IMG/VR virus record: IMGVR_UViG_3300030060_004544
Coordinates: 1 to 64,000 of that record
Direction: 5' to 3' (one strand)
Origin: a virus
DNA length: 64,000 nt
Made by a program: the position numbers and the translations under genes
Shown here: positions 6,249 to 57,960 of the stretch, one piece after another
Layout of the letters: each line of letters starts with the position of its first letter
Numbering within the stretch: the stretch's first letter is position 1
The notes under the pieces: generated by a model
Seen by the model: only the letters and a program-made list of their open reading frames with translations
Databases searched by the model: none
Told to the model about the DNA's origin: nothing

Positions 6249-7814
6249 ATGGAATATAATCAACCTAGTTTGATCGTAAAAGATCTTACATTTAGCAATG
6301 ATGCTAAGTGGAGAATTATTGAAGGTGTAGAAAAACTGAACAACGCAGTTAAGTCTACACTTGGAGCTTCAGGAAAATGTGTCATCTATGAAGATGCATT
6401 AGGTAAACCGGTGATAACAAAAGACGGTGTAACAGTAGCTGAATCTGTTGTCTTATTTGACCCGGTTGAAAATATAGGTGCAACACTTATAAAAGAAGCG
6501 GCGAATAACACTGTGAAAGAAGCAGGTGACGGTACCACTACGGCTACTGTCCTTGCTCATTCGCTTTTAAAAATAGCAAGTGCTAGAGAATCTGATAACG
6601 TTAGAGAAATAAAGCAAGGTATTAAAACAGCTACAGACAAAGTAATGACATACTTAGATAAGGTAAGCATCGATGTAAATGATGACTTGCTTGAAAATGT
6701 AGCTACAATATCTACTAATAATGACGAAGAGCTTGGCAAGTTTATATCATCAGCATATAAACAAGTAGGTAAAGATGGTGTAGTGTTAATGGAAGAGTCA
6801 CCAACAGGAGAAACATATGTTGATGTTGTTGATGGTATACAAATAAAATCTCCGTTAAAATCACCACATCTTGTTACAGATAAAGATAGAGGTGTTGCAG
6901 AGCTAGATAATCCTCTAGTATTAATCACATCGTCACCAATACCTAATATACGTAAAATACAACCTATATTAGAACACTGTATAAAGAAAAACAGATCTTT
7001 ACTTATAGTTGGTGAACTAGAGCAACAGCCTAAAGCAGCATTATTAACAAACAAGGTTAAAGGTAATATAAAGGTTAACTTTATTGACTTACCTGGCTTT
7101 GGTCCTACTAAACAGGATAGCACTGAAGATTTAGCCATAGTAACAGGTGCTAAAGTTATTAATGAAGAGCTTGGTGATGACTTTGATCTTATTGATGTAG
7201 ATTGTCTTGGTGAAGCAGTGAAAACTGTTACAGATGACAAACATACGGTGTTTACTGTAAATAAATCAGGTAAAACCCTTAAAGATCGTATAAAACAAGT
7301 AAAAGATATAATAGGTAAGGAAACTAAAAATCCTTACTTAAAAAAGAAACAACAAGAAAGATTAGCAATACTTAATGGATCAGTGGGGATTGTGTTTGTA
7401 GGAGCTGATAGTAAGGTAGAACTAAAAGAAAAGAAAGACAGGATAGAAGATGCAATATATGCTACAAAAGCAGCTTTACAAGAAGGCATCGTTCCTGGAG
7501 GTGGTATAGCGTTACTTAATGCTAGTAACAATATAACGCCTAAAAATGTTGGAGAAGAATTATTATTACAGGCAATACAAACACCTTTCAATACAATACT
7601 AGATAACGCAGGTATTGAAAAACCTACTAAACTAGTCAAAGGTCAAGGTATAAACGTAGTAACCGGTAAAAAGGTTAATATGATTAAGTCTGGAATTATC
7701 GATCCGGTTTTGGTTACAAAATCGGCGCTGAAAAACGCTGTATCAGTAGTTAGTACTATTATATCAGCTGATTGTGTAATATCTAATATGAGGATAAATG
7801 AAAGCAATAAATAG
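6249..7814 (+). CDS. groEL: Phage chaperonin GroEL (Hsp60)
   Basis: A 521-residue type I chaperonin subunit that forms a folding chamber with GroES, presumably for phage capsid or tail proteins. Visible signatures are GDGTTTA (residues 93-99, ATP binding), ITKDGVTVA (57-65) and the late equatorial [12 protein letters not shown]. The usual Gly-Gly-Met C-terminal tail is missing, and the protein is somewhat shorter than bacterial GroEL (about 540-550). It overlaps groES by 17 bases in the order groEL-groES, the reverse of the bacterial operon. Confidence 0.95.
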
Positions 7815-11215: not shown

Positions 11216-13096
11216 ATGGCAATACCTATTTTAAATCATTTAAACGTTAAAGGTAATATAAACCTTAACGATTATAAGCTTAACGATTTTGTCGTAGATC
11301 ATTCTACCGAGGGCGATGCCGGTAATACTACAGGGAAGCTGATCTACGATTCAGGAACGTTAAAGTATTACGATGGCTCCGCGTGGCAGTCATTAGGAAC
11401 TTCTTCAGGAACAATGAGTTCTTTTCAGTTAGAAGATGGAGATGGAGATGAAGTTACAATCTCAGACGCAAAAGAAGTTAAATTTATAGACGGTGCAGGT
11501 TTAAATATAAACTGGACAGACACATCTCATGGTACAGACGGTGATCCTTATGATCTTACATTTGAAATTGCATTATCTACTAGTGACTTTACTAAACCCG
11601 CACCAGCTGATGGTGATGTGCTTTTAACATTAGACAGTGATGGATCAACCACTCAATTTACAGGTGTAGCAGAGCTTGCAACTTTATTTGCAGGAACTGG
11701 CTTAACAGCAACAAGCGGTGTTATCGCGGTTGACACGCTTAACCAAGATACTACTGGTACAGCTGCTAACGCAACAAATGCTGCTCATGTAAGAGTTACT
11801 GATAATGAAAATACAGATGAAAATAATTTAATCACATTTGTTGAAGACGCAACAAGCTCTACTGGTGATGTAGGTCTTGAAATGGATGGTGATTTCCATT
11901 ATAATCCTAGCTCTGGTACTGTAACCGCTACAATATTTAAAGGTAATATAGATGCTGTTGATGGTGATTTTGATGGAACGTTAGAAGCAGATGCTTTAAC
12001 AATTGGAGGCGTTGCAATAGCAGAATTTATACAAGATACTGTTGGAGCAATGTTTACTAGTAATACAGAAACAAGAATTTCAGCAACCTATGAAGATGAT
12101 GATGGAACTATAGATCTTGTTGTAGATGATATGACAGCTAACGATGATGTAGATGTTAATATTGCTAACTTAACAGCTAGACTTCCTCAAATTACAGAAA
12201 GTGTTACAATTGGTGATGCGACAGATGTTACTGTAACAACATCAGGTAACTTAGTTGTAACTGGTGATTTAACTGTATCAGGTGATACTGTTTCAGCTAA
12301 CGTAGCAACTTTAGATGTTGAAGATAAAAATATAACATTAAACAAATCAGGTGGCGATTCTAGCTCAACAGCAGACGGCGCAGGTATTACTATTCAAGAT
12401 GCGGTAGATGCTTCAAATGACGCTACGTTATTATGGAACGCATCAAATGATAAATTTGTATTTTCACATTTAATAGAAGCACCAGGAACATCTATATTTT
12501 CTGCTCTTGATGTATCCGGTAATGTTGATATTGACGGAACAACTAATCTTGACGCTGTTGATATTGATGGTAATGTACAATTAGACGGAACATTAAGCGT
12601 TGGTGTTGATGACACGGGTTATGATGTTAAATTCTTTGGCGCTACAGCTAGTAAGTACATGTTATGGGATGCTAGTGCGGATACTTTAATATTAACTGGA
12701 GAATTAGATGCCGGTTCATTAGATATTTCTGGTAACGCAGATATTGATGGTACATTAGAAGCTGATGCGATTACTGTCGATGGAACAGCACTTGATACGG
12801 TTATTGATAACAGAATTAAGGTTGTACAAAAAACTGCAACTATAGACGTTAGTTCGTTAACAAGTAACGTAAATAAATGTAGCATTACTCACAGTATGAA
12901 CTCAACTAACTTAATTATTAAGTTGTACGATAGCGTTACATTTTTAGATGTCTTCGCAGATGTTGATAGACTTAGTGTAAATCAAATACAAGTTGTTTTC
13001 TCTCATCAACCTAGTAACGACATTATAGTTGTTATTCAGGAAATAATTGGAGACAATATTGCCGCGGGATCAAATATTACATACCCTGGCTCTTAA
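11216..13096 (+). CDS. Large tail-fibre-like protein, 626 aa
   Basis: Asp/Thr/Gly-rich beta-repeat protein. The N-terminal 60 residues include LIYDSGTLKYYDGSAWQSLG, a motif typical of marine phage fibres. Repeated segments of the type GNVDIDGT, LDAGSLDISGNADIDGTLEAD and GNLVVTGDLTVSGDT suggest a trimeric beta-helix shaft. The C-terminal module has ITHSMNSTNLIIKLYD. A terminator-like hairpin follows at 13113-13140. Probably an adhesin or spike component. Confidence 0.7.
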   Translation: MAIPILNHLNVKGNINLNDYKLNDFVVDHSTEGDAGNTTGKLIYDSGTLKYYDGSAWQSLGTSSGTMSSFQLEDGDGDEVTISDAKEVKFIDGAGLNINWTDTSHGTDGDPYDLTFEIALSTSDFTKPAPADGDVLLTLDSDGSTTQFTGVAELATLFAGTGLTATSGVIAVDTLNQDTTGTAANATNAAHVRVTDNENTDENNLITFVEDATSSTGDVGLEMDGDFHYNPSSGTVTATIFKGNIDAVDGDFDGTLEADALTIGGVAIAEFIQDTVGAMFTSNTETRISATYEDDDGTIDLVVDDMTANDDVDVNIANLTARLPQITESVTIGDATDVTVTTSGNLVVTGDLTVSGDTVSANVATLDVEDKNITLNKSGGDSSSTADGAGITIQDAVDASNDATLLWNASNDKFVFSHLIEAPGTSIFSALDVSGNVDIDGTTNLDAVDIDGNVQLDGTLSVGVDDTGYDVKFFGATASKYMLWDASADTLILTGELDAGSLDISGNADIDGTLEADAITVDGTALDTVIDNRIKVVQKTATIDVSSLTSNVNKCSITHSMNSTNLIIKLYDSVTFLDVFADVDRLSVNQIQVVFSHQPSNDIIVVIQEIIGDNIAAGSNITYPGS

Positions 13097-13158: not shown

Positions 13159-13560
13159 ATGGCAATACAGTTTTTGCAAGACACACTTATAAACGGTCAT
13201 TTTAGTTTCCAGGAATCTGCATTTACAAGTGTAGTAGCTAGTGGTAATACACATACTGTAGACTTAACCGCAGACACTAATAACTATAAGGTAATTGCAA
13301 ATAATGCAACAAACACCTTGGCTTTTAGTAATTTAAGCGATAAAGTTATTGGTAAAACAGGCTCTATAGCTATCCAAAATCCAGCTAGTGTAGGATCTTT
13401 AGGTTGGGCAGCTTTACCCGCTACAGCTTATACTCCAGGTGGTGTAGCTATATCATTTGACACAAGTTCAAACGGCATAGCTGTTATTTCTTACCTTGTA
13501 ATGTCAGCAAATAAAGTATTAATAAACTATGTAGGAGACTTTGGTAGTTATCCTCAGTAA
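13159..13560 (+). CDS. Hypothetical beta-rich protein, 133 aa
   Basis: Beta-rich, with regularly spaced Thr, Asn and Gly and no signal peptide (NTHTVDLTADTNNYKVIANNATNTLAF). Such compact proteins are often fibre tips or fibre-associated proteins; its position between the fibre gene and the repeat proteins supports this. Not recognised. Confidence 0.6.
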   Translation: MAIQFLQDTLINGHFSFQESAFTSVVASGNTHTVDLTADTNNYKVIANNATNTLAFSNLSDKVIGKTGSIAIQNPASVGSLGWAALPATAYTPGGVAISFDTSSNGIAVISYLVMSANKVLINYVGDFGSYPQ

Positions 13561-13571
13561 AATCTAATTTA

Positions 13572-16466
13572 ATGAAGTGGTTATGGAATAAAATAGATTT
13601 CTGGAATACCGCGACTAGCAGAAGCACAACAGTTAGTACTTCTAAATCGACGGCTACAAGCAAATCCACAACTACTACTTTTAACACAAGTAAGAGTACT
13701 ACAACGGTATATAATACAAGTACTAATACTACAACTACTTTCAATACTAGTAAAAGTACAAGTACTGTTTTTAATACTAGTACTACAACTACTTTTGAAA
13801 CTTCTAGGGAAACTACTGTATCAACCAGTAGATCAACTAGCACAGAGTTTAATACTAGCACATCTACAACTACAACCTTTGAAACTAGTAAGTCAACCAC
13901 GACTACTTTCAATACTAGCACAACTACAACATTTGAAACATCTAGGCAGACAACAGTCTCTACTAGCAGATCAACTACAACTACATTTAACACAAGTAAG
14001 TCTACAACCACTACTTTTGAAACTAGCAAGAGTACTACTACAACCTTTAATACAAGTACAACAACAACTTTTAATACTAGCAGGGAAACTACAATATCAA
14101 CAAGTAGAACTACTCAAACTGCATATAACACTAGTAAAAGTACAACTACTATTTACGAAACTAGCAAAAGTACTACTACTACATTTAACACTAGTACTAC
14201 TACCACTTTTGAAACTAGTAGGGATACTACTGTGTCAACTAGTAGAAGTACAACAACAACTTTCAATACTACAAAAAGTACTACCACTACTTTTAATACA
14301 ACAAAAAGTACTAGTACAGTATTCAATACAAGTACTACAACGACTTTTAATACAAGTAGAGAAACTACTATAAGTACATCAAGATCAACTCAGACTACGT
14401 TTGCTACTAGCAAGTCTACATCTACTGTTTTCAATACTAGCACAACCACTACGTTTAATACAAGTAGAGAAACAACTATAAGTACGTCTAGAAACACTAC
14501 TACAACGTTCAACACTAGTAAATCTACATCTACAGTATTTAATACTAGCACGACTACTACTTTTGAAACAAGCAAACAAACAACTGTTTCAACTAGTAGA
14601 AGTACTACTACCACATTTAATACTAGCAAGAACACAACTACTACTTACAACACGACAAAGTCTACTAGTACGGTTTTTAACACAAGTACCACTACCACTT
14701 TCAACACTAGTAGAGAGACTACTATATCTACATCTAGATCTACAACGACTACGTTTAATACTAGTAAAAACACTACAACGACTTTCAATACAACAAAGTC
14801 AACTAGCACTGTGTTTAATACTAGTACTGTTACAACGTTTAACACAACTAGAGAAACTACAGTATCAACTAGTAGAAACACTACAACAACCTTTAATACA
14901 AGTAAAAATACGACAACTACGTTTAATACTACTAAGTCTACAAACACTGTATTTAACACGTCTACTACAACAACATACAATACCACTAGAGAAACAACTA
15001 TTTCAACTAGTAGAAACACAACAACAGTATACAATACTACTAAGTCTACGACCACAACGTTTAATACTACTAAAACAACTAATACTGTATTTAACACAAC
15101 AACTTTAACTACGTTTAGTACAACTACAACATATAATACAAGTAAATCAACTGCAACTAGCAGAAACACTACTGTATCTACTACTAGAACTACTGAAACC
15201 GCGTACAATACTACTAGAACTACACAAACTACTTTTAATACTTCAACAAGTACATCAACAAGTAGAGAAACTACTATAAGCACTAGTAGAAGCACCAACA
15301 CTGTTTTTAACACAACTACACTGACAACATTTGGCACGCAAACAACTTTTAGCACTTCTAAGTCAACTCTTACTGTTTTTAATACTACTACTTTAACCAC
15401 GTTTAATACAACAACGACTTTCAATACCACTAGGTCTACGAACACTGTATTTAACACCACTACTTTAACTACGTTTAACACGGTAACAACTTTTAATACT
15501 ACTAGAGATACTACTACGATATTTAGCACAACAACGTTAACCACGTTTGATACCACAACAACATTTTCTACTAGTACACTAACAGAAACAATTTACAACA
15601 CTAGTACTACTACTACCACTACAACAACGTTTAACACCAGTAGAAACACATCGGAAAGTAGAACTACAAGTACTACAACAACATTTTCTACAACGACAGT
15701 TTTTAACACAACTAGAACTACTAACGTTAATTATGTTGTATGGGATGTGCAACAAGGAGATAGTAGTACTCTTGGTGCAGGTTATATATACAAACAAAAC
15801 ATATCACCTACTGGTGGAAGTAACATTGCTGCAAGTGAGGTTAGATTTAATAACCAACTTCCTGAAAATGCTAGTAAAGTATATATACATGAAGAAGATG
15901 ATACAGGTTATAACCTTTATAACGCGTTTTCAAATGTAATGAATTTTGTTAACGCTGGTGGTGGAAATTATGCTAGATTTCTTATAGCTGCTGACGTACT
16001 TCAAAAAGCTATTTCTTTTAAAGTTACCGGTGGATCATATAATTCTACTTTAGATTATTTTGAATTTGATCTAGCTGAAAACATATTTGTTGACACAGTT
16101 AAGTGTCCAGGTTATAACACATTTGTCTTAGAAGCAGGTGATACAAAATTAGAAGTATGGATGTGGAGAAGTGATGGTGCTGGTGGATACAGTACAACTA
16201 CTACAACTACGTTTAGCACAAGTACGTTAACAACATTTAACACTGTAACAGTATATAACACTAGTAAAAGTACACAAACAACGTTTAGTACATCTAAATC
16301 TACATCAACAAATAGAAATACTTCAGAAAGTAGAAGTACAACTACAACTTTTAATACTCTAAGATCAACCATAACACAATACAATGCGTTTACTTTATAC
16401 AATACATTTAGATCAACATTTACATCAGGCGGCGGTGGAGGCGGCTGTAGTAGAGGTTGTATATAA
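13572..16466 (+). CDS. Giant Thr/Asn/Ser repeat protein 1, 964 aa
   Basis: Residues ~15-715 and ~871-945 consist almost wholly of short repeats of the type STTTTFNTSK, STTTVFNTS and TFNTSRETTISTSR, with Phe or Tyr about every 8-10 residues. Nearly every unit carries an N-T-S or N-T-T sequon. Between them lies a non-repetitive domain (about 718-870, starting NVNYVVWDVQ) that looks like a folded beta domain. The C-terminus is Gly-rich and ends CSRGCI. No signal peptide. It lies among fibre genes, so a long fibrous appendage or tail-surface protein is likely. I do not recognise a characterised family. Confidence 0.8.
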   Translation: MKWLWNKIDFWNTATSRSTTVSTSKSTATSKSTTTTFNTSKSTTTVYNTSTNTTTTFNTSKSTSTVFNTSTTTTFETSRETTVSTSRSTSTEFNTSTSTTTTFETSKSTTTTFNTSTTTTFETSRQTTVSTSRSTTTTFNTSKSTTTTFETSKSTTTTFNTSTTTTFNTSRETTISTSRTTQTAYNTSKSTTTIYETSKSTTTTFNTSTTTTFETSRDTTVSTSRSTTTTFNTTKSTTTTFNTTKSTSTVFNTSTTTTFNTSRETTISTSRSTQTTFATSKSTSTVFNTSTTTTFNTSRETTISTSRNTTTTFNTSKSTSTVFNTSTTTTFETSKQTTVSTSRSTTTTFNTSKNTTTTYNTTKSTSTVFNTSTTTTFNTSRETTISTSRSTTTTFNTSKNTTTTFNTTKSTSTVFNTSTVTTFNTTRETTVSTSRNTTTTFNTSKNTTTTFNTTKSTNTVFNTSTTTTYNTTRETTISTSRNTTTVYNTTKSTTTTFNTTKTTNTVFNTTTLTTFSTTTTYNTSKSTATSRNTTVSTTRTTETAYNTTRTTQTTFNTSTSTSTSRETTISTSRSTNTVFNTTTLTTFGTQTTFSTSKSTLTVFNTTTLTTFNTTTTFNTTRSTNTVFNTTTLTTFNTVTTFNTTRDTTTIFSTTTLTTFDTTTTFSTSTLTETIYNTSTTTTTTTTFNTSRNTSESRTTSTTTTFSTTTVFNTTRTTNVNYVVWDVQQGDSSTLGAGYIYKQNISPTGGSNIAASEVRFNNQLPENASKVYIHEEDDTGYNLYNAFSNVMNFVNAGGGNYARFLIAADVLQKAISFKVTGGSYNSTLDYFEFDLAENIFVDTVKCPGYNTFVLEAGDTKLEVWMWRSDGAGGYSTTTTTTFSTSTLTTFNTVTVYNTSKSTQTTFSTSKSTSTNRNTSESRSTTTTFNTLRSTITQYNAFTLYNTFRSTFTSGGGGGGCSRGCI
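13614..15720 (+). repeat. Coding repeat array (Thr-rich units), first block
   Basis: DNA encoding 8-10-residue units. The units are the same at protein level but use all four Thr codons and both Asn and Phe codons in changing order, so few long exact DNA repeats exist. Confidence 0.8.
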
Positions 16467-16477
16467 AATTAAATAAT

Positions 16478-17509
16478 ATGAATATACCTTATAGAACATC
16501 GGATACGCAACAAAATTATCATGCAGCTGATTTAACTTTTCGTGAAAATGGAGACATAGTCTGGACTAACCCTGTTACTAATGAGATATGGGAAGTTATG
16601 ATGGAGTGGGAAATACCAATCATGCAAAAAGCGGCAGAGGTGTGTGTTGACGCTGGTGCAGATGTTTTAGAGTGTGGTTTTGGCATGGGTATATTGTCAG
16701 ACGCTATACAAGCTAGAAACCCAGGTACTCACACAATATGTGAAACGCATCCTCAAATAATACCTAAATTAAAAGCTTGGGCTGCAGATAAACCTAATGT
16801 AATTATCGTTGAAGACAAATGGTTGAGTTTGTTAAACGAGCGTAAAGGTTATGATGCAATACTAATGGACACATATGCAGACCCTGATTTACACCCTCAT
16901 TTTAGATATTTTGTAAAACAAAAAGCAAAAGACGGAGCTAAAATAACATGGTGGAATTATAGTGGTGGAACAACAGATGAGTATATGAAGTTTCACTGGG
17001 ACGATGTAGTATTTCATAATGTAGCTATATCTCCACCTGAAAATCAGTATTATAATAGAAACGTGTATCCTGTTCCTGTTAAAGTTTACAATAGAGAAAC
17101 AGGTTTTGGTGTATTATCAAGCTCTAGTTTTAATATAAGCGAAACAGAAAGCAAAGATCTACATGAAGTTAAATCATTTTTAACTTGTGATGTTTCAAAT
17201 GGAACAAAAAGCGTTAAAAGTGTTGAAGGTGTTGAGAGATTAGCGATGTATTGCGAAGGTTTGTACACTTTAAATGAAAATTTAGTTATAGCTGGTTCAC
17301 ATCCTATATACGTAAAAAGAAATAATCAATGGACTACAGTTAAAGTAAATGAACTTGTAATTGGTGATAAACTATATGGTAAAAATGGAGAGGTTGAGCT
17401 AACAAGTAAAACTTTTGATTCGTCTGAAACAACAAGACAAATATATAAAGTAGTGCTTAATAACTATTTTGTTAACGATATATTAGTGAAAGGAGGGTCT
17501 GATGCCTAA
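16478..17509 (+). CDS. GAMT/RMT2-like methyltransferase fused to a Hint-like domain, 343 aa
   Basis: Residues ~20-165 form a class I SAM-dependent methyltransferase: motif I VLECGFGMGIL (63-73), an acidic strand end ICETH (87-91) and AILMDTYAD (127-135). VLE.GFGMG followed by IQ..NP..H.I.E.H is the pattern of guanidinoacetate/arginine N-methyltransferases of the GAMT/RMT2 group. The C-terminal third (about 225-340) resembles a Hint/hedgehog-type module: AGSHPIYV, VNELVIGDKLYG and YKVVLNNYFVNDILVKG. The usual N-terminal Cys nucleophile is not obvious. I chose the ATG at 16478 behind an AAAATTAAATAAT leader. It overlaps the second repeat protein (ATGCCTAA), so it is probably co-expressed with both repeat proteins. 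Confidence 0.7.
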   Translation: MNIPYRTSDTQQNYHAADLTFRENGDIVWTNPVTNEIWEVMMEWEIPIMQKAAEVCVDAGADVLECGFGMGILSDAIQARNPGTHTICETHPQIIPKLKAWAADKPNVIIVEDKWLSLLNERKGYDAILMDTYADPDLHPHFRYFVKQKAKDGAKITWWNYSGGTTDEYMKFHWDDVVFHNVAISPPENQYYNRNVYPVPVKVYNRETGFGVLSSSSFNISETESKDLHEVKSFLTCDVSNGTKSVKSVEGVERLAMYCEGLYTLNENLVIAGSHPIYVKRNNQWTTVKVNELVIGDKLYGKNGEVELTSKTFDSSETTRQIYKVVLNNYFVNDILVKGGSDA

Positions 17510-19946
17510 TACTACTACTGTTTTCGGAACATCGAGGTTAACAACAATATCTGATTTTACTAATACTACTGTTTCTACCAGTAGAAATACTACAACTACT
17601 TACACTACTAGTACTGTATACAATACGACAACTACTTTTAATACTACTACTAGTACAACCACTACGTATAATACTACTAAATCCACATCAACATCAAGAA
17701 ATACTAGTTGGGCTACTAGTAGAAGTACTAGCACGGTTGTAGGTGCAGATATGGATGATGATGTAATGACTTTTTACAACACTAGTACAAATACTTTAAC
17801 GTCTAAAAGTACAAACACCACAACAACATACACTACAAGCACTACGTATCCTACAAGTAGATCAACAACAACAACTACAAACTACAACACAAGTACTATT
17901 ACGACAGAATCTAGTAACACTACAAGAGCTACATCAACTAGCAGAAATACTAGTTATGAAACTAGTAAAACTACAACTACTACTTACAACACTACAAAAT
18001 CTACATCAACAAGTAGAAACACCACTATTAGTACAAACAACAATACAACTACTACTTATAACACTACAAGAACTACATCAACAAGTAGAAATACAACCGT
18101 ATCTACTAATAGAAATACAACTACTACTTTCAACACAAGTACTATTACACAGACAAGTAGAAACACTTCATACAGCACAAATAGAGATACAACAACGACA
18201 TTTAATACTAGTACAACAACTACATTTAATACTACAACAACTTACAATACTAGTAGAAATACAACTACAACCTTTTCAACAAGTACTAACACCGTAACTA
18301 CGTTTAACACGCAGACGTTGACAACTTTTAACACTACAACTACTTTTAATACTAGTACTAATACGCAAACTAGTAGGAACACAACTGTGTCTACAAATAA
18401 AAATACTACTACAACTTTTAACACAACAAAATCTACTACAACAACGTTTAATACGTCTAAATCAACAACAACGACGTTTAATACATCTACTACAACGACT
18501 TTTAACACGTCTAGAACAACAACTATTAGTACGAATAAAAATACCACTACAACGTTTAACACAACGAGAAGTACTCAAACAACTTTTGCTACAAGTAAAA
18601 GTACTAGTACTGTGTTCAATACGTCTACAGTAACAACATTCAATACAAGTAGAACAACAACTGTTAGTACAAGTAGAAATACAACAACAACCTTTAATAC
18701 TACTAGGTCAACTCAAACTACATTTGCTACTAGTAAAAGTACCACAACAGTATTTAATACGAGTACAACTACTACTTTTAATACATCTAGATCTACCACG
18801 GTAAGTACAAGTAGAAACACCACGACTACTTTTAATACTACTAGAACTACGCAAACTACTTTTGCTACTAGTAAATCAACTACTACAGTGTTTAACACCA
18901 GTACGACTACCACGTTTAACACATCAAGATCTACAACTATTAGCACAAGTAGAAATACTACAACTGTATACGCTACTAGTAAATCAACAACTACTACGTT
19001 TAATACGTCTACAACGACAACTTTCAACACTAGTAGATCTACTACAGTATCTACAAGTAGAAATACAACTACGACTTTTAATACTAGTAAAAATACAACC
19101 ACAACATTTAACACTAGTACAACAACTACATTTAACACTAGTAGATCAACGACTGTTTCTACCAGTAGAAATACTACGACTACGTTTAATACAACTAAAA
19201 GTACTACTACGACGTTTAATACTTCTAAAAGTACTACAACCGTATTTAACACATCAACTACGACAACATTTAATACTAGTAGGTCTACTACTATAAGCAC
19301 ATCTAGATCTACGACTACAATATTTAATACAAGTAAGTCTACTACTACTACGTTTCAAACAAGTACTAATACCACTACGACTTTTAATACAAGTACGACT
19401 ACCACTTTTGAAACTAGTAGATCAACAACTATAAGTACGTCAAGAAGTACAACGACCACGTTTAATACAACTAAATCTACTACGACCACATTCAATACTA
19501 GTAAGAGTACAACAACGGTGTTTAATACTTCAACAACAACTACTTTTAATACTAGTAGAAGTACTACTGTTAGTACTAGTAGAAGTACAACAACTACTTT
19601 TAACACAACAAAAGCAACAACTACAAACTACAACACAAGTACTGACACGACTACTACTTTTAACACTAGTACGACTACAACTTTTAATACCACTAGAGTT
19701 ACAACAGTTAGTACGTCTAAAAATACTACGACTACATTTAACACGACTAAAACTACACAAACAACTTTTAGTACAAGTAAGAGTACCACCACAACTTTTA
19801 ACACAACAAAGAGTACTACTACAATATTTAACACTACTACAGTGTTTAATACTAGTACAACTACTACGTTTGAAACTAATACTAACTGGTATGATGGTGA
19901 TCCTGGTAATTATGGTCAATTAGGTGATGTATCCTTTGATAGGTAG
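17502..19946 (+). CDS. Giant Thr/Asn/Ser repeat protein 2, 814 aa
   Basis: Same repeat grammar as the 964-aa protein over residues ~1-795 (units such as NTTTTFNTS, STTTVFNTS, STTISTSR), with one short break near residue 80 (VVGADMDDDVMTF). The last ~20 residues are different (NWYDGDPGNYGQLGDVSFDR). No signal peptide or membrane helix. It overlaps the methyltransferase-Hint gene and is followed by the KpsC-like glycosyltransferase. Probably a paralogue of repeat protein 1, forming or decorating an appendage. Confidence 0.8.
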   Translation: MPNTTTVFGTSRLTTISDFTNTTVSTSRNTTTTYTTSTVYNTTTTFNTTTSTTTTYNTTKSTSTSRNTSWATSRSTSTVVGADMDDDVMTFYNTSTNTLTSKSTNTTTTYTTSTTYPTSRSTTTTTNYNTSTITTESSNTTRATSTSRNTSYETSKTTTTTYNTTKSTSTSRNTTISTNNNTTTTYNTTRTTSTSRNTTVSTNRNTTTTFNTSTITQTSRNTSYSTNRDTTTTFNTSTTTTFNTTTTYNTSRNTTTTFSTSTNTVTTFNTQTLTTFNTTTTFNTSTNTQTSRNTTVSTNKNTTTTFNTTKSTTTTFNTSKSTTTTFNTSTTTTFNTSRTTTISTNKNTTTTFNTTRSTQTTFATSKSTSTVFNTSTVTTFNTSRTTTVSTSRNTTTTFNTTRSTQTTFATSKSTTTVFNTSTTTTFNTSRSTTVSTSRNTTTTFNTTRTTQTTFATSKSTTTVFNTSTTTTFNTSRSTTISTSRNTTTVYATSKSTTTTFNTSTTTTFNTSRSTTVSTSRNTTTTFNTSKNTTTTFNTSTTTTFNTSRSTTVSTSRNTTTTFNTTKSTTTTFNTSKSTTTVFNTSTTTTFNTSRSTTISTSRSTTTIFNTSKSTTTTFQTSTNTTTTFNTSTTTTFETSRSTTISTSRSTTTTFNTTKSTTTTFNTSKSTTTVFNTSTTTTFNTSRSTTVSTSRSTTTTFNTTKATTTNYNTSTDTTTTFNTSTTTTFNTTRVTTVSTSKNTTTTFNTTKTTQTTFSTSKSTTTTFNTTKSTTTIFNTTTVFNTSTTTTFETNTNWYDGDPGNYGQLGDVSFDR
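17550..19880 (+). repeat. Coding repeat array (Thr-rich units), second block
   Basis: Continuous array of ACN-rich units encoding TTTFNTS-type repeats, with extensive synonymous variation between units. No unit is conserved exactly over long distance at DNA level. Confidence 0.8.
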
Positions 19947-19999: not shown

Positions 20000-20893
20000 A
20001 TGGAAATGTTTAATAGACGTGAGTTGGACAAAAGAATTGGCCATCTCAAAAAAAATAAAAAACTTGAAAGTTTAGAACAAGTAGAAGGATACTTTATAAG
20101 AAAGTGTACTGAAGCTGGTATTGATTTTAGCTATGATGTTATGGCTGATGAAATGCCTCATTTTAAAACTTTAGCATATACTGAGTTTGCTACTAGTTTT
20201 TACATGCAACCTCTAAACACAAAACTTAGATACGCTCAAATGATTGACGCATACGATGATGATTGTGATGTTGTTGATTACTCATCTTATTTAATTGAAA
20301 ATGTTATGAGTAAAAATGCTAATAAGTATCAAGATAGAGACTCTAAGTTTGATCAATATGAGCCGAAAGATAATATTGTTATATTACCTGGCTCAAATAA
20401 AGTAAAATCCAATATTTGCTTAAACAGATTAAAGTTTTTAGCAAATAAACATGGTAATAACATGTATTTTAAGCCACATCCTATAACAACACATCAAATT
20501 ATAGGTGAGTTAAAAGACTTTTTTGGCGACCAAAATATATTACCAAGGGATATAGATATGTATTATTATTTACAAAAAGCAAATAACGTATACACTACTC
20601 ATATTAGTGAAAGTATGATATACGCGGCTGTTTTAGGTAAAAAAATTGAACCTATTGACGTTTGGAATAACATACAAATGGGATCTTTTTATTGCATTAA
20701 CAACCATTTGCTTGATAATCAACATGATATTAAAAATTATATCAATAAGTGTTTTTCAAGTCCAAAGTCTGGTATTATAAACCCAGCTGTAGACAAAAAT
20801 TGGAAAGAAAAAATAGATAAATACTTACAATACATACTTAAAAAACGAGAAATGTACAAAGACTGGTTTATAGCTGAACCAAAAAAGAAGTAA
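20000..20893 (+). CDS. Capsule-type (KpsC/KpsS-like) glycosyltransferase, 297 aa
   Basis: A GT-B-like C-terminal half: VILPGSNK (~residues 127-134), YFKPHP (~155-160), then LQKANNVYTTHISESMIYAAVLGKKIEPI (~190-220). The KPHP motif followed by a Ser-containing loop and an EA-like helix is the pattern of KpsC/KpsS/capsule-synthesis transferases, several of which transfer Kdo. The N-terminus is helical and not recognised. It follows the repeat proteins by 53 bases, so the repeat proteins are possible substrates. The assignment is by motif only. Confidence 0.55.
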   Translation: MEMFNRRELDKRIGHLKKNKKLESLEQVEGYFIRKCTEAGIDFSYDVMADEMPHFKTLAYTEFATSFYMQPLNTKLRYAQMIDAYDDDCDVVDYSSYLIENVMSKNANKYQDRDSKFDQYEPKDNIVILPGSNKVKSNICLNRLKFLANKHGNNMYFKPHPITTHQIIGELKDFFGDQNILPRDIDMYYYLQKANNVYTTHISESMIYAAVLGKKIEPIDVWNNIQMGSFYCINNHLLDNQHDIKNYINKCFSSPKSGIINPAVDKNWKEKIDKYLQYILKKREMYKDWFIAEPKKK

Positions 20894-52902: not shown

Positions 52903-53143
52903 AATAAAAGGCGGAGGGACTAAAAAAGTCTGTTTACCATACAATAAATATAAAAGTATGAGTAAAGCCGAAAAGCAAAAAGTTATACGTGCTAAACGTA
53001 AAGCTGCTGCTTCAGGTAAATATAAAAGATCTAGTAAATCTAATGTCAAAGGCGCTAGAAAAAAAGGCGCTACATTAAGAGACTGGTTTCAAAAAGAAAA
53101 ATGGGTTAACATAGCCAACGGTAAACCGTGTGGAGCTAAGTAG
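52889..53143 (+). CDS. Small basic protein, 84 aa
   Basis: Lys-rich protein with GGGTKKVCLPYNKY at the N-terminus and KKGATLRDWFQKEKW near the C-terminus. The latter motif is shared with the 54-aa protein at 9275. Last rightward gene; its 3' end overlaps the opposing glycosyltransferase gene by 8 bases. Confidence 0.65.
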   Translation: MPKSKIKGGGTKKVCLPYNKYKSMSKAEKQKVIRAKRKAAASGKYKRSSKSNVKGARKKGATLRDWFQKEKWVNIANGKPCGAK

Positions 53144-53960
53144 CTTTTACCCTTTTCTTATAGTATTTAGTACGCTCAGGTGAACATATAACCATAGGCA
53201 TATTCTTTGCCCAACCTGTGTACTTAATTTTCTTTTCATTTAAATCACTTAATATATGCCAAGTCAATTGACCAGTTCTTGCTAGCCAAGAAACAAATTG
53301 TTCTTCGAGATGATGTGAATGAGCGCTGTGAGGTCTAGCATATATTGGTAAATGCCAGCTATGTGGATCGTGAGCGCTTATCTCTTCTTTACCTGTTTTT
53401 TTATTGTGACCTACTCTTCTTGTTACTGTTGACTTAGCAAAAAAATCAAAACCTATTATTGAAAGACTTTTATAAGTCTTTATTTTTTCTATAAACCAAG
53501 CTATTGCTAAAAACCCAGTAGAAGGTCTTTGTTTTGATGTTAACACATCCATATCATAAACCTTCATAGTATCTATTATTTCTTTGTCAGTATACATTTG
53601 TTTGTAACCATATTTTATCAACTCTTCGCATATGTGTTTTTCAATCACAAACTCTTTTACTTTAAAATTACCTCTTGATCTATTTATTAATATAGTAGTT
53701 TTTTCAAACTTACCACCAGGTTTAAATTCTTCTATTTTCTTTTTAAAAGCATGAGATCTAAATTGTCCTGTTATCCATATATCACATTTAGAACCTAACG
53801 ACTTTTCTTGCTCTTCAGTAGCCTCTAATGCTCTACCAAACTTAACAACTATATCATGGCTGTCTATAAAATCTTTATTTTTATACGCCATCATCTCAAC
53901 AGAGTTGCCTACAAAAATAACTGATTTATTTTTTACTAACTCTTTAATATATTTCTCCAT
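53136..53960 (-). CDS. GT29-like sialyl/Kdo-type glycosyltransferase, 274 aa
   Basis: Contains a sialylmotif-L-like start VIFVGNSVEMM (residues 14-24) with ID.HD.VV.FGRA, and a sialylmotif-S-like RPSTGFLAIAWFIEK followed by IIGFDFF. A His-rich stretch (HDPHSWHLPIY) and HHLEEQF follow. Family GT29 enzymes use CMP-sugars; plant GT29 members transfer Kdo. With KdsA and KdsB in the same operon, CMP-Kdo is a plausible donor. It overlaps the GT8-like gene by 25 bases. Confidence 0.65.
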   Translation of the reverse strand: MEKYIKELVKNKSVIFVGNSVEMMAYKNKDFIDSHDIVVKFGRALEATEEQEKSLGSKCDIWITGQFRSHAFKKKIEEFKPGGKFEKTTILINRSRGNFKVKEFVIEKHICEELIKYGYKQMYTDKEIIDTMKVYDMDVLTSKQRPSTGFLAIAWFIEKIKTYKSLSIIGFDFFAKSTVTRRVGHNKKTGKEEISAHDPHSWHLPIYARPHSAHSHHLEEQFVSWLARTGQLTWHILSDLNEKKIKYTGWAKNMPMVICSPERTKYYKKRVKAT

Positions 53961-54592
53961 TCATCTGCAAATTCACAATCTTTATACTCTTCAAACCAAG
54001 GTCCACCATTTGTAAAGTGTATACCTTTAGCTGGATTTTTCTTGGAGTAAGGTTGTTCACTTACTAAATGATTCCAAGTTTTATCTATTTCACTTATTTT
54101 ATTACCAGCCCAAGCTAACTGGTGTAGATCTGCTGCACTAGCATTATCTAAATATTCTTTTGTTAAAATGTCTTTTAGTTTTTCATTGTTAAAAACCATT
54201 AATGAACTCCAGTTTTTTCTTGGATAAGACTTGTTAACAATACCGTTCATCTTTGTTTGTTGAATATCGTAGTACTTATGTTTTACACAAGCTACTAAAT
54301 CGTCTTCTTTTAAATAATCAAAAACCTTAGCAACATCATCTCTAAATATAAAATCATTATCACAAAACATAGATAGACCTTTGTATTTAGACATAAGTGG
54401 TGTATAAAAACGTGTAAATGAAAACTCTGTTGATTCACCTTCTGTTTCTTTTCTACCGTATATATCTTTACTTATTAACTTGTGTTTATATAAAGGAATT
54501 ATCTTTATGTTTTTATTATGTTTTTTTATAGATTTATAACAGGCTTTAGTTGCCTCTGGGTATCGACTATCATGTCCTATAAATACTCTCAT
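53936..54592 (-). CDS. GT8-like glycosyltransferase, 218 aa
   Basis: Begins MRVFIGHDSRYPEATKACYKSI. The FTRFYTPLMSKYKGLSMFCDNDFIF segment (about residues 58-82) fits the nucleotide-sugar-binding strand and DxD-type metal motif of GT8/GT-A enzymes. Acceptor and sugar are unknown. Coupled to kdsA by a 4-base overlap. Confidence 0.65.
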   Translation of the reverse strand: MRVFIGHDSRYPEATKACYKSIKKHNKNIKIIPLYKHKLISKDIYGRKETEGESTEFSFTRFYTPLMSKYKGLSMFCDNDFIFRDDVAKVFDYLKEDDLVACVKHKYYDIQQTKMNGIVNKSYPRKNWSSLMVFNNEKLKDILTKEYLDNASAADLHQLAWAGNKISEIDKTWNHLVSEQPYSKKNPAKGIHFTNGGPWFEEYKDCEFADEWRNILKS

Positions 54593-55341
54593 ACTAATTG
54601 TTTTAATATTTCTTCAAATTTATCTAACTTAATCATATTAGACCCATCACTCCATGCTGCACTAGGATTTTCGTGTACTTCAAAAAAGTAACCGTCAACG
54701 CCAACTGCTTTTGCAGCTTTTGCAATATGTATAGCATAGCGTGGTTGACCAGCCGTTGTGCTGCCTGAATTAGGTCTTTGTGTTGAGTGCGTACAGTCTA
54801 TTATAACTGGTACGTCTAATTCTTTCATGTCTATGATCTGTCTAAAATCTACAACAAGATCACCCATACCAAACATACTACCTCTTTCAGTTAGCATAAT
54901 ATTATTATTACCTGTACTTTTAACTTTATTAACAGCGTGTATCATATTGCTACCATTTATAAACTGTCCTTTTTTAATATTAACATTTTTAAACGTGTGA
55001 CCCGCAGCAACTAATAAATCAGTTTGTCTACATAAATAAGCTGGTATTTGTATAATATCTACAACATCAGCTAACTTATCTGCTTGCCAAGGTTCATGTA
55101 TATCTGTTGTAATCTTACAACCATCTAGCTCTTTCAACTCAGCAAATATATCTATAGCTTTATCTATGCCAATACCTCGTTTAGAGTTTACAGATGTTCT
55201 ATTAGCCTTGTCAAATGAAGCTTTGAAATAATAATCAAAACCATACTTATCTGCTAGCTCTGAGCATTTGTTAGATATTTCATGCGCTTGTATTCTACCT
55301 TCTAGACTACATGGTCCAGCTATCAATATAGGTTTTTTCAT
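54589..55341 (-). CDS. kdsA: 3-deoxy-D-manno-octulosonate 8-phosphate synthase (KdsA)
   Basis: Joins phosphoenolpyruvate and arabinose 5-phosphate to Kdo-8-phosphate. Signature segments: LIAGPCSLEGR (residues 6-16), YYFKASFDKANRTS (37-50), TDIHEP (~80-85), IIQIPAYLCRQTDLL (~95-109), and a C-terminal FFEVHENP. 250 residues, typical is 270-280. It is next to kdsB, so the phage encodes two steps of CMP-Kdo formation; the intermediate KdsC phosphatase is not visible here. Confidence 0.92.
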   Translation of the reverse strand: MKKPILIAGPCSLEGRIQAHEISNKCSELADKYGFDYYFKASFDKANRTSVNSKRGIGIDKAIDIFAELKELDGCKITTDIHEPWQADKLADVVDIIQIPAYLCRQTDLLVAAGHTFKNVNIKKGQFINGSNMIHAVNKVKSTGNNNIMLTERGSMFGMGDLVVDFRQIIDMKELDVPVIIDCTHSTQRPNSGSTTAGQPRYAIHIAKAAKAVGVDGYFFEVHENPSAAWSDGSNMIKLDKFEEILKQLV

Positions 55342-55967
55342 TTAGTAAAATTTACTATAAGTTTATGTTTTGGTATATATTTTCTTATTAATTTTTTCCA
55401 CTTATCTGGGTGCATTAATGTAACATGCATGTTTTCACCGTTATCAAAATGCGCGTGTGAAGGTGACATAGGTATAGACATAACTATAACACCGCATGTG
55501 CAAGTTAAATCTGCTAGATCTCTAAGTAAAGCTGGTAACTCTTCTAACGGAACGTGCTCTACAACATCACAACATACTGTCATATCAAATTTAGCCTGTG
55601 GTGGTCTAACGTGGTATATAGGGTGACATGGGTCATACCTATAAAAACCAGCAACGTTTTCACCTAAAAACTCCATCAATGTCATAGCGTCATATTTATC
55701 TGGAACTCTTTTGCCTGGCCTTGTGTATTTTTCACCATTATATATTCCTTTTCTTTTATGCCAAACTTGAGCAGAGCCACAACCATAGTCTAATATCATT
55801 GAGCCTGGATTTTCACTTATCCATTTTTTTGTTGGATGTAATATTGTTTTCCAACCACTACCATCGCCATAACCACCTTCAACCTTAGTTCTCCAACTAC
55901 CGTCACGTTCTTTTATTTTATATGCAGCGCCTTGGTGTAATGCTTTGTATTTTTCTCCGTATTTCAT
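55338..55967 (-). CDS. SAM-dependent methyltransferase, 209 aa
   Basis: Class I methyltransferase with motif I ILDYGCGSA (about residues 58-66) and CCDVVEHVPLEELP (~130-143), typical of small-molecule or sugar methyltransferases (methyltransferase 11/12 group). Lies between kdsA and kdsB, so a glycan or sugar-nucleotide target is plausible, but the target is not determined. Confidence 0.75.
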   Translation of the reverse strand: MKYGEKYKALHQGAAYKIKERDGSWRTKVEGGYGDGSGWKTILHPTKKWISENPGSMILDYGCGSAQVWHKRKGIYNGEKYTRPGKRVPDKYDAMTLMEFLGENVAGFYRYDPCHPIYHVRPPQAKFDMTVCCDVVEHVPLEELPALLRDLADLTCTCGVIVMSIPMSPSHAHFDNGENMHVTLMHPDKWKKLIRKYIPKHKLIVNFTK

Positions 55968-56602
55968 TTTATATCTTTATAAGTATTAACTTCTACTCCA
56001 TCGTATGTAGTTTCAACTACATCAATATCATATAAACCTAATATTCTGTTTTGTTCTAAGTTTTCTAATTTATATTTATCTTTCATAACTCTATATGCTT
56101 TTAACATATAAGGTTTATAAGCGTATATACCTAAATGTCTATCGCCATAACCTATGTCAGATCTTGTAAACCACATTGCTTTACCATTTTGATGTATAAC
56201 TTTTACATCATCTGGTTTAGCACCCTTTGTGTAAGCGGTTAAACAGACTACATCTTTTTTATTTAATGCTTTTATTATAGGTCTCATTGTATCTAAATTT
56301 ATATCTAACATATCACCTTGCACGTTTAATATGTAATCATATTCATTTACTAAATCTAATACAACTCTCTTAGATAATCTATGTGTACCGTTATCAGCTT
56401 TACCCGTTTGTATACACCATTTAATTGGAAACAGTTTAGCAATACGCTTACTGTCTGTCGCTACAAATGTATCATATCCCATCATACGTACTTTATCAAA
56501 CACAAGACGTATCAAAGGTTCATCATCGAACTTCATCAACATTTTGTGTTTGATTCTAGTACTATTAAGTCTTGCTGGTATAACTACCGCTATGTTTTTC
56601 AT
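55964..56602 (-). CDS. kdsB: CMP-Kdo synthetase-like cytidylyltransferase (KdsB-like)
   Basis: Starts with VVIPARLNSTRIKHKML, the CTP-binding loop of CMP-sugar synthetases, followed by TFVATDS and ILNVQGDMLDI (~95-105, metal-binding Asp). Length 212 is shorter than bacterial KdsB (~250). Activates Kdo to CMP-Kdo. A CMP-nonulosonate synthetase is the alternative, but kdsA next door favours Kdo. Confidence 0.85.
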   Translation of the reverse strand: MKNIAVVIPARLNSTRIKHKMLMKFDDEPLIRLVFDKVRMMGYDTFVATDSKRIAKLFPIKWCIQTGKADNGTHRLSKRVVLDLVNEYDYILNVQGDMLDINLDTMRPIIKALNKKDVVCLTAYTKGAKPDDVKVIHQNGKAMWFTRSDIGYGDRHLGIYAYKPYMLKAYRVMKDKYKLENLEQNRILGLYDIDVVETTYDGVEVNTYKDIK

Positions 56603-56943
56603 ATCTTAGTACCAGCTGTTCTTCTTATTATATCATCGTGATTAAACTCAGCCCAATATAATTCAAAAGCAACACCATCTTCAACACCCTCAAACTGATG
56701 TATTTTACCAGGTTTTACCATAGTAAAATCACCTGCTTCAAGTATTGTTTCATCAACAAGACCTTGATCTTCTTGCCATACTCTGACAAGCATCTTACCG
56801 GACTCTACAAAAAATCCGTTCCATTTAAATCTATGCTCGTGTTCAGAGCATTTAAATCCTTTATTAAATTGTATTCGGTGAAACTCCATGACGCCGTTTT
56901 TATGGATCATTTCTGTTTTACCCCATATTTTACCTGCTTTCAT
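56599..56943 (-). CDS. Cupin-domain protein, 114 aa
   Basis: Single cupin barrel with SEHEHRFKWNGFFVESGKM (His-containing motif 1) and GDFTMVKPGKIHQFEG (motif 2). Small cupins in sugar clusters often act as isomerases or metal-sugar binders. Coupled to kdsB (4-base overlap). No specific substrate visible. Confidence 0.7.
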   Translation of the reverse strand: MKAGKIWGKTEMIHKNGVMEFHRIQFNKGFKCSEHEHRFKWNGFFVESGKMLVRVWQEDQGLVDETILEAGDFTMVKPGKIHQFEGVEDGVAFELYWAEFNHDDIIRRTAGTKI

Positions 56944-57130
56944 TTATTATCTTTTGTAATTTTTCTTTATCACCAAACAATACTAAACAATCGTAATCTT
57001 TAGTTTCAATATCCTCTATCTTTTCTACGTTATCAATAACCCATTTAGCGCAAAACGCATTATTTAAATTAGCCATTAATCTTGAGTTTCTAATATTGTA
57101 AGGAGCTTCTACTATTGCTACTCTATTCAT
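56930..57130 (-). CDS. Hypothetical protein, 66 aa
   Basis: Short alpha/beta protein (MNRVAIVEAP..., DYDCLVLFGD) that may be a truncated Rossmann-like fold. It overlaps both neighbours slightly, so it is translated in the same operon. Function unknown. Confidence 0.6.
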   Translation of the reverse strand: MNRVAIVEAPYNIRNSRLMANLNNAFCAKWVIDNVEKIEDIETKDYDCLVLFGDKEKLQKIINESR

Positions 57131-57960
57131 TTTTTTAAATTATTAAAATAAGTTTTTTTCCAATTGCTACCACCCATCCTAAACCTTTTAGGCACTTCGT
57201 TTGTGCGGTAACCTTTTTTATTAAAATACAAATCTTTTGGCACCCAATCATACCATTTAGGTCTGTACATACCTTTACCCTTTGCCGTTATATTAAACTT
57301 TTTTAACGTTTGATTTTTTTTATTTGCAAAGTGTATACTTATAGATATTCTAGGTGTAAGTGATTCAGCTTTGTGATACCTGTATTGTGGTATATACAAT
57401 AAATCACCAGGTTCTAAAACAAACTCATCAACTACTTTACCAGGCTCTCTATTAGGAGCTGAGTTTTCATATATAGTCCATTTAACTTTACCCTCAGTGT
57501 GAAACAAAAAGTTTTCTGTTTGATCACAATGCGCTGGAAACCCAACAGCATCTTTTTTACTTGAGCAATATATATTAACTGTACCTCTATTAAAGTATCT
57601 TTCAAACTCGTTACATATCGCAACAAACTTTTCTTTCGTGTACTCAGCACCTGGTAATACAAATGTTTTACCTGACTGCCAAAATTCAAACAATTCTTCT
57701 TTGCTCAACATTGGTAATTTTAATTTACCTGATTTAACTTTGTTTAAACACCAGCTTTTACCTTTGCCGTCATAGTCTAATACTTGTAAATGATTTAAAT
57801 TATCTGGGTAATTGTTCATTACGTTATTAAAATCGTTCCATTTAAATAATGTTTTAAATATATTTCTTCTAATAACTAAATGTTTTTTACCCCAGTAATG
57901 CAGCCAAAACCTCTTAGGATCGACTGGGTTTAATATGTCTTTTAATGTTATATTATCCAT
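57127..57960 (-). CDS. JmjC/cupin-8-type 2-oxoglutarate oxygenase, 277 aa
   Basis: Fold and motifs of ribosomal-oxygenase-like enzymes: FWLHYWGKKHLVIRR at the start, FPAHCDQTENFLFHTEG (His144, Asp146) and YIPQYRYHKAES (His196), giving the Fe-binding HxD...H triad. Such enzymes hydroxylate proteins such as ribosomal proteins. The phage version may modify a host or virion protein. It overlaps nrdA by 8 bases. Confidence 0.75.
   Translation of the reverse strand: MDNITLKDILNPVDPKRFWLHYWGKKHLVIRRNIFKTLFKWNDFNNVMNNYPDNLNHLQVLDYDGKGKSWCLNKVKSGKLKLPMLSKEELFEFWQSGKTFVLPGAEYTKEKFVAICNEFERYFNRGTVNIYCSSKKDAVGFPAHCDQTENFLFHTEGKVKWTIYENSAPNREPGKVVDEFVLEPGDLLYIPQYRYHKAESLTPRISISIHFANKKNQTLKKFNITAKGKGMYRPKWYDWVPKDLYFNKKGYRTNEVPKRFRMGGSNWKKTYFNNLKK

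Follow-up and report, generated by a model that had tools for sequence, protein, structure and literature searches.

The stretch of DNA considered here, positions 1 to 64,000 of the IMG/VR virus record IMGVR_UViG_3300030060_004544 (64,000 nucleotides; the window), carries genes for two long threonine-rich repeat proteins, designated A and B, together with a downstream gene for a glycosyltransferase (GT)-like protein. The features on which the analysis centers are as follows.

13572-16466, plus strand: protein A, 964 residues; two-face Thr dyad repeat at residues 13-718, a non-repeat insert at about 719-866, then a short repeat tail and the C-terminal GGGGGGCSRGCI
15726-16190, plus strand: insert of protein A, presumably globular, conserved in orthologues
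17502-19946, plus strand: protein B, 814 residues; two-face Thr dyad repeat with the conserved C-terminus FETNTNWYDGDPGNYGQLGDVSFDR
20000-20893, plus strand: GT-B-like glycosyltransferase, phrog_26179 (unknown function), starting 53 bases after B

A previous sequence-only reading described two repeat proteins of 964 and 814 residues in this span, and both open reading frames are indeed present, with unit lengths of 8 and 10 residues. The span also holds a third gene (16457-17509, a methyltransferase), and A, although mostly repetitive, is interrupted by its insert, which shows 31-75% identity in relatives, and closes with the GGGGGGCSRGCI end. Both proteins are extreme in composition, with Thr accounting for 40% of A and 48% of B, and longer periods of 36-46 residues are visible in the DNA (108 and 138 bases). 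In the repeats, two residue classes alternate by position, and the unit lengths are even for this reason: one face carries Ser, Asn, Ala, Asp, Gly, and Thr, and the other Thr with Phe, Tyr, Trp, Lys, Arg, and His. This register is kept by 300 of 300 informative residues in the repeat part of A and by 343 of 350 in that of B (residues 1-789), together 643 of 650 that keep to their face. Over the whole proteins, face purity is 0.857 for A and 0.967 for B, compared with 0.52 ± 0.015 for shuffled whole proteins. The large residues of the Thr face stand as neighbours twice in A and never in B, compared with about 39 times in shuffles, and this face holds 224 Thr in A and 247 in B with a single Ser in each.

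Recent repeat expansion or DNA slippage can be ruled out, as copies with the same peptide never share a coding sequence: TTTTFNTS occurs 34 times in 34 distinct encodings, and the 11 copies of TTVSTSR and the nine of TTISTSR are likewise all distinct. Since the repeat copies diverge at the DNA level while the ratio of nonsynonymous to synonymous substitution (dN/dS) against orthologues is 0.13-0.30, it is the protein pattern that is under selection. Insertions and deletions among orthologues of B are mostly even-numbered. Neither protein matched Pfam or PHROG, and a PDB sequence search returned no match for B. Another candidate, the motif D-[ST]-[AILMVT] of O-glycosylation in Bacteroidota, occurs only 4 times in A and 2 times in B and was rejected.

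The same grammar recurs widely in phages. A scan of viral contigs with B gave 77 loci, many of them encoding quite different proteins with this alternation, up to 3309 residues in length. In 87 non-redundant phage proteins from diverse contigs, Phe, Tyr, Trp, Lys, Arg, and His fall on the Thr face in 94-99% of cases (Phe 97%, Tyr 96%, Trp 99%, Lys 96%, and Arg 99%), and the small-residue face takes 98.5% of Asn, 96% of Ser, 95% of Ala, and 95% of Asp. Cultured phages also possess dyad proteins, including KVP40.0254, its relatives in Vibrio phages QD01, D479, D484, and F86, and gp41 of Caulobacter phage Lullwater. The previous claim that no characterised phage protein has such a grammar is true of the databases searched, although unrecognised members exist in named isolates. 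In three of the Vibrio phages the dyad reading frame is unannotated, with a short coding sequence or none called (D484, L191, 3901-4431; D479, L189, 3939-4448; F86, L190, 3912-4466). In Stenotrophomonas phage DLP_6, the C-terminal half of AAY80_265, annotated as a baseplate wedge subunit, is a dyad array, and in the locus L021 a phrog_17744/PF23786 baseplate-wedge domain precedes the array; in those relatives, dyad arrays are therefore placed on the tail. The earlier suggestion of an appendage agrees with these fusions, and A and B themselves are probably tail proteins, judging by the position of their genes after tail-fibre-like genes. A search of 84,980 bacterial and archaeal genomes yielded no confirmed relative of B, where a low-complexity or repeat filter may hide some, and tblastn with B in phage records found nothing, probably owing to the low-complexity filter. 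The literature search returned nothing relevant on Thr-rich phage fibres, and the phi-pp2 paper gives no virion proteomics for the KVP40 homologue.

The dyad proteins are closely tied to the GT-B-like partner gene. Among 146 loci with an upstream region, some of them retrieved with the GT gene as query, 144 have a dyad gene directly upstream of the GT gene, at a gap of -9 to 251 bases, and the linkage holds in eight of nine GT clusters at 40% identity. The exceptions are Cr30, in which a 117-residue Tyr/Thr-rich protein with weak parity occupies the dyad slot, and DLP_6, in which both genes occur in the genome with the dyad gene located elsewhere. By profile, phrog_26179 and phrog_30602 represent the GT partner and phrog_30374 the KVP40-type dyad protein; all three are listed as of unknown function, and the pairing is not recorded in the PHROG entries. 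The AlphaFold2 (AF2) model of the partner has a predicted local distance difference test score (pLDDT) of 89 and a predicted TM-score (pTM) of 0.86. In a Foldseek search against the PDB, its three best chains are transferases of 3-deoxy-D-manno-octulosonic acid (Kdo), KrkA and KpsC (E 1e-5 to 1e-4, probability 1.0), followed by TagF, WaaG, GtfA/B, EarP, and other GT-B enzymes. Among viral models, the leading matches are two evident relatives, of which one comes from Vibrio phage VH1_2019; Tetraselmis virus proteins come next, one of them annotated as capsule polysaccharide biosynthesis. Invariant residues of the partner include D46, K158-x-H160-P161, and S203-E204, and the model thereby appears to combine a GT-B architecture with the HP motif of cytidine monophosphate (CMP)-sugar GT-B enzymes; HP motifs are common to Kdo and sialic-acid transferases (PMC10148158). 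No Pfam glycosyltransferase family was recognised in members of the partner family, and a PDB profile search with their alignment gave chance matches only, so the assignment rests on fold and motifs. The Cr30 GT had no confirmed relatives in the same bacterial and archaeal genomes. In KVP40-like phages (L133 7788-9847 and Vibrio relatives), QueC-like, nicotinate phosphoribosyltransferase, and radical SAM genes lie downstream of the GT homologue.

Fold and motifs bear on another possibility, that A and B are unmodified fibres forming a multimeric beta-rod with the two-residue in/out pattern of phage fibre needles or triple beta-helices, the GT-like protein being a dedicated assembly chaperone and the window's Kdo genes a separate auxiliary set acting on host lipopolysaccharide (LPS). 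Strict parity, even units, and non-adjacent large residues are what a beta-fibre needs, and fibre chaperones are often encoded beside their fibres. However, the partner is modelled with confidence as an enzyme-like GT-B protein with invariant K-x-H-P and S-E, and we consider this explanation unlikely.

Glycosylation had first been suggested because the repeat units are rich in N-x-S/T sequons. Sequons are indeed frequent and modestly enriched, but much of their abundance follows from composition. They take in 60 of 85 Asn in A and 74 of 88 in B (134 sequons in all), mostly as N-T-S or N-T-T, where plain shuffling predicts 45.5 and 55.1; in the repeat parts, 55 (A) and 74 (B) are observed, compared with 40.5 ± 3.5 and 56.9 ± 3.9 in face-preserving shuffles. 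Over all repeats, Ser or Thr stands two positions after Asn in 73% of cases versus 50-66% after other residues common on the same face. In spite of this excess, modification by a cytoplasmic N-glycosyltransferase is very improbable. Relatives that keep the GT partner (L190 and L177) contain just 2-6% Asn and some 2 sequons in every 100 residues, many Asn in other lineages lack a sequon, the Asn slot of the repeats also takes Glu, Ser, Ala, Gln, and Asp, and the GT model appears nearest to Kdo transferases rather than to an N-glycosyltransferase. With the GT retained where Asn and sequons have become scarce, N-linked sequons very probably do not underlie the system, and O-linkage is likelier, since Thr is the universal residue of dyad repeats. 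What survives of the earlier glycosylation claim is the modification itself, now suggested by the GT-B-like partner and by the Kdo genes rather than by sequons.

As the predicted GT fold is nearest to Kdo transferases, a CMP-sugar donor was suggested, and the window's own genome was searched for a CMP-sugar synthetase. A PF02348 search located one at 55964-56602, within a Kdo cassette spanning 53136-56943 on the minus strand.

53136-53960, minus strand: GT29 (sialyltransferase-family)-like CMP-sugar transferase; PF00777 E 0.06, below cut-off
53936-54592, minus strand: GT-A/GT8-like glycosyltransferase with a DND motif; phrog_28018
54589-55341, minus strand: KdsA, Kdo-8-phosphate synthase; TIGR01362 325.9 bits versus an equivalog cut-off of 314
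55338-55967, minus strand: methyltransferase; phrog_24759 E 1.5e-17, Methyltransf_23 E 7.5e-6, just below cut-off
55964-56602, minus strand: KdsB-like CMP-Kdo synthetase; PF02348 79.3 bits versus a cut-off of 22.6
56599-56943, minus strand: cupin; Cupin_2 E 3.4e-7, a constant neighbour of KdsB/KdsA in a conserved cluster

Orthologues of the GT29-like protein (L204, L205, and L207) exceed the PF00777 gathering score, the alignment and motifs being the same in the window copy, and sialylmotif-like VGNS..IDSHD and RPSTGF..IIGFDFF are conserved. The KdsB-like protein matches the PDB KdsB structure 2y6p (E 1.5e-18). Of seven other clade contigs that reach 55 kb, five have KdsA next to KdsB or separated from it by a single gene. 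Scanning in reverse with KdsA yielded 55 loci; where their flanks are present, most contain the same cluster. Five contigs of the reverse scan were both searched and no shorter than 55 kb, and four of them carry the GT-B gene as well. In the L207/L263-L278 lineage, the genes follow one another directly as dyad, GT-B, KdsA, cupin, and GT29, after which comes GT-A. This contiguity of Kdo and GT29 genes with the dyad-GT pair also argues against unmodified beta-rods served by a chaperone. The five nearest terminase relatives without dyad matches (Flavobacterium elemo, Cellulophaga phi13:2 and phi38:1, Tenacibaculum Gundel_1, and MW202828) have neither GT nor KdsA/KdsB. As further observations, the KdsA-like proteins of L207 (4922-6358) and L263-L278 are about 470-480 residues long, with a C-terminal part of ~220 residues without a Pfam match, and a JmjC_2 (ribosomal-oxygenase-type) protein (57127-57960), conserved in relatives, lies between the ribonucleotide reductase genes and the Kdo cassette.

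Kdo occurs in LPS, and CMP-Kdo is what the cassette is predicted to make; both points are also consistent with a GT that modifies a host surface glycan for receptor masking or superinfection exclusion, the dyad fibre recognising that glycan. Phage GTs that alter host serotype (gtr genes) are known (PMC12619734). On the other hand, the dyad linkage recurs across nine GT clusters, in phages of unrelated types and with unrelated hosts, and the pair lies amid neck, tail, and terminase genes, for example in Cr30, DLP_6, and Lullwater; such a role for the pair is thus rather improbable.

The explanation we favour, and regard as reasonably probable, is that this marine phage bears sugar-coated tail stalks, probably O-linked and Kdo-type, made by a phage glycosylation island. 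A and B would be stalk or fibre proteins of the tail, whose strict alternation may yield a long, extended beta-type polypeptide with a small-residue face and a Thr face spaced by aromatic and basic residues. They would be synthesised in the host cytoplasm beside the dedicated GT-B-like enzyme, which would join a CMP-donor sugar, most likely Kdo or a Kdo-like ulosonic acid, to Thr and/or Ser hydroxyls along the array. Of the donor pathway, the phage would supply one part (KdsA and the KdsB-like protein), and the host would isomerise arabinose-5-phosphate and dephosphorylate Kdo-8-P. The glycan would be extended or capped by the methyltransferases and by the GT29-like and GT8-like enzymes. The resulting coat could stiffen and solubilise a Thr-rich rod otherwise prone to aggregation, guard it from proteases, and offer an acidic, LPS-like surface. 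A broader proposition is a tentative extension that we regard as possible: tailed phages that are not related to one another would share a hitherto unnoticed type of virion fibre with strict two-residue alternation, a protein polymer bearing Kdo, and many of them would owe an LPS-like virion coat to such an island (a dedicated GT-B, its own KdsA/KdsB, GT29 and GT8 extension enzymes, and methyltransferases).

The sequences themselves show the alternation and selection for it, the linkage of the genes, their enzyme families, and their co-inheritance; the presence of A and B in virions, how they fold, their glycosylation, and the identity and role of the donor sugar are inferred. Several observations weigh against the sugar-coated stalk. 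AF2 of full-length B with 22 orthologues gave no fold (pLDDT 29), so no structural claim is built on that model. When the whole GT model is compared with Kdo transferases, the TM-score reaches only 0.33-0.38. The QXXXD nucleophile motif, a mark of the retaining Kdo transferases GT99, GT107, and GT140 (PMC12887879, PMC10148158), is absent from the GT partner alignment, in which PG[ST]N is conserved after the same strand instead; because this nucleophile is missing, the partner is not filed in any of the three families. The GT8-like assignment rests on an orthologue (L207:8910-9614) matching Glyco_transf_8 at E 0.022, below cut-off, the protein being otherwise without an assigned family, and the KdsB-like protein is short and falls below equivalog cut-offs (TIGR00466 74.9 versus 155.2). 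Genes of the KdsC/KdsD type were not detected with PF08282 and PF01380. Two large clade contigs, those of L044 and L040, have dyad and GT genes without KdsA/KdsB, all Vibrio, Caulobacter, and T4-like members likewise lack KdsA/KdsB, and one 89-kb contig has KdsA without GT. Kdo is therefore not required everywhere unless it is host-derived. Gram-negative bacteria make CMP-Kdo, and the Vibrio, Caulobacter, and Stenotrophomonas phages without KdsA/KdsB could use that of the host.

Further genes surround the stalk genes.

11216-13096, plus strand: 626-residue tail-fibre-like protein, preceding the dyad genes; its role is suggested by position and repeats
13159-13560, plus strand: 133-residue protein; many relatives conserve it immediately before A or before their first dyad gene
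16457-17509, plus strand: GAMT/RMT2-like S-adenosylmethionine methyltransferase, overlapping the end of A and the start of B

The 626-residue protein has weak Bactofilin and phrog_29834/36132 matches, and its position is conserved. The methyltransferase is homologous to guanidinoacetate methyltransferase (PDB GAMT 1p1b, E 4e-11), with a weak Hint-like match in its C-terminal part (PT-HINT PF07591, E 0.013, below cut-off). Of GAMT-like loci with at least 42% identity, 51 could be judged on the upstream side and 52 on the downstream side; a dyad gene is present in 50 in each case, and a few of these loci are window copies. RMT2, a related enzyme, methylates arginine; this kinship and the strict placement of Arg suggest that the protein may methylate stalk arginines on the Thr face. 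In mycobacteriophages, GT and methyltransferase genes are described for modified virion proteins (PMC11600133), and the literature search gave nothing relevant on a phage GAMT. In the uncultured 634-kb phage LR745206 (L197), a GAMT-like gene lies amid large fibre-like reading frames without dyad repeats, and the enzyme may therefore serve other phage fibres too. A phage GroEL (Cpn60) gene at 6249-7814 lies upstream of the tail module; GroEL with GroES is annotated in the relatives MW202828 and elemo.

The dyad stalk with its predicted glycosylation genes is an apparently undescribed, widespread phage system. The analysis gives a name to a class of proteins that lacks annotation, present in many marine phages and several cultured ones, provides in residue parity a sequence rule that finds its members, and ties the class to an enzyme family of unknown function. 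If the favoured explanation is correct, many aquatic phages would carry sugar-coated tail stalks via their own Kdo pathway. Such stalks would amount to a new way for phages to disguise themselves or to engineer a stalk, and the system would be a natural means of O-glycosylation in the cytoplasm. The model is testable, since the gene pair is present in the cultured isolates Lullwater and DLP_6, and E. coli produces CMP-Kdo.

Several known systems offer parallels. In the serine-rich repeat (SRR) glycoproteins of Gram-positive bacteria, GtfA/GtfB O-glycosylate Ser/Thr in the cytoplasm before final assembly, and GT loss leaves the protein insoluble or absent in most species (PMC7661464). The dyad system resembles them in its long repeat protein, predicted to form an extended stalk, and in a dedicated GT usually encoded in the same island. 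It differs in that Thr rather than Ser dominates, with Ser on the other face and aromatic and basic residues on the Thr face, in being phage-encoded, and in GT family and donor, its glycosylation being predicted. No LPXTG-like end was seen in A or B, and no SRR-type export or anchor genes were noted, no search being aimed at Sec genes. KpsC (GT107), WbbB (GT99), and KrkA (GT140) share the HP motif with the phage GT, KrkA and KpsC being its best structural neighbours in the PDB, whereas QXXXD is absent from the phage enzyme and sequence similarity is negligible. Mycobacteriophages encode GTs, with a methyltransferase gene nearby, that modify virion proteins (Freeman et al. 2023; PMC12619734, PMC11600133); the targets are C-termini of capsid and tail-tube subunits, and no dyad stalks or Kdo synthesis are reported there. 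In staphylococcal Ser-Asp repeat (SDR) adhesins, SdgA/SdgB modify a two-residue repeat and protect it from proteolysis (PMC3794999). That system likewise pairs such a repeat with dedicated glycosyltransferases, but it involves a Ser-Asp dipeptide, N-acetylglucosamine, and cell-wall adhesins rather than virion proteins. By analogy, the dyad stalks would work like SRR and SDR adhesins without belonging to either family.

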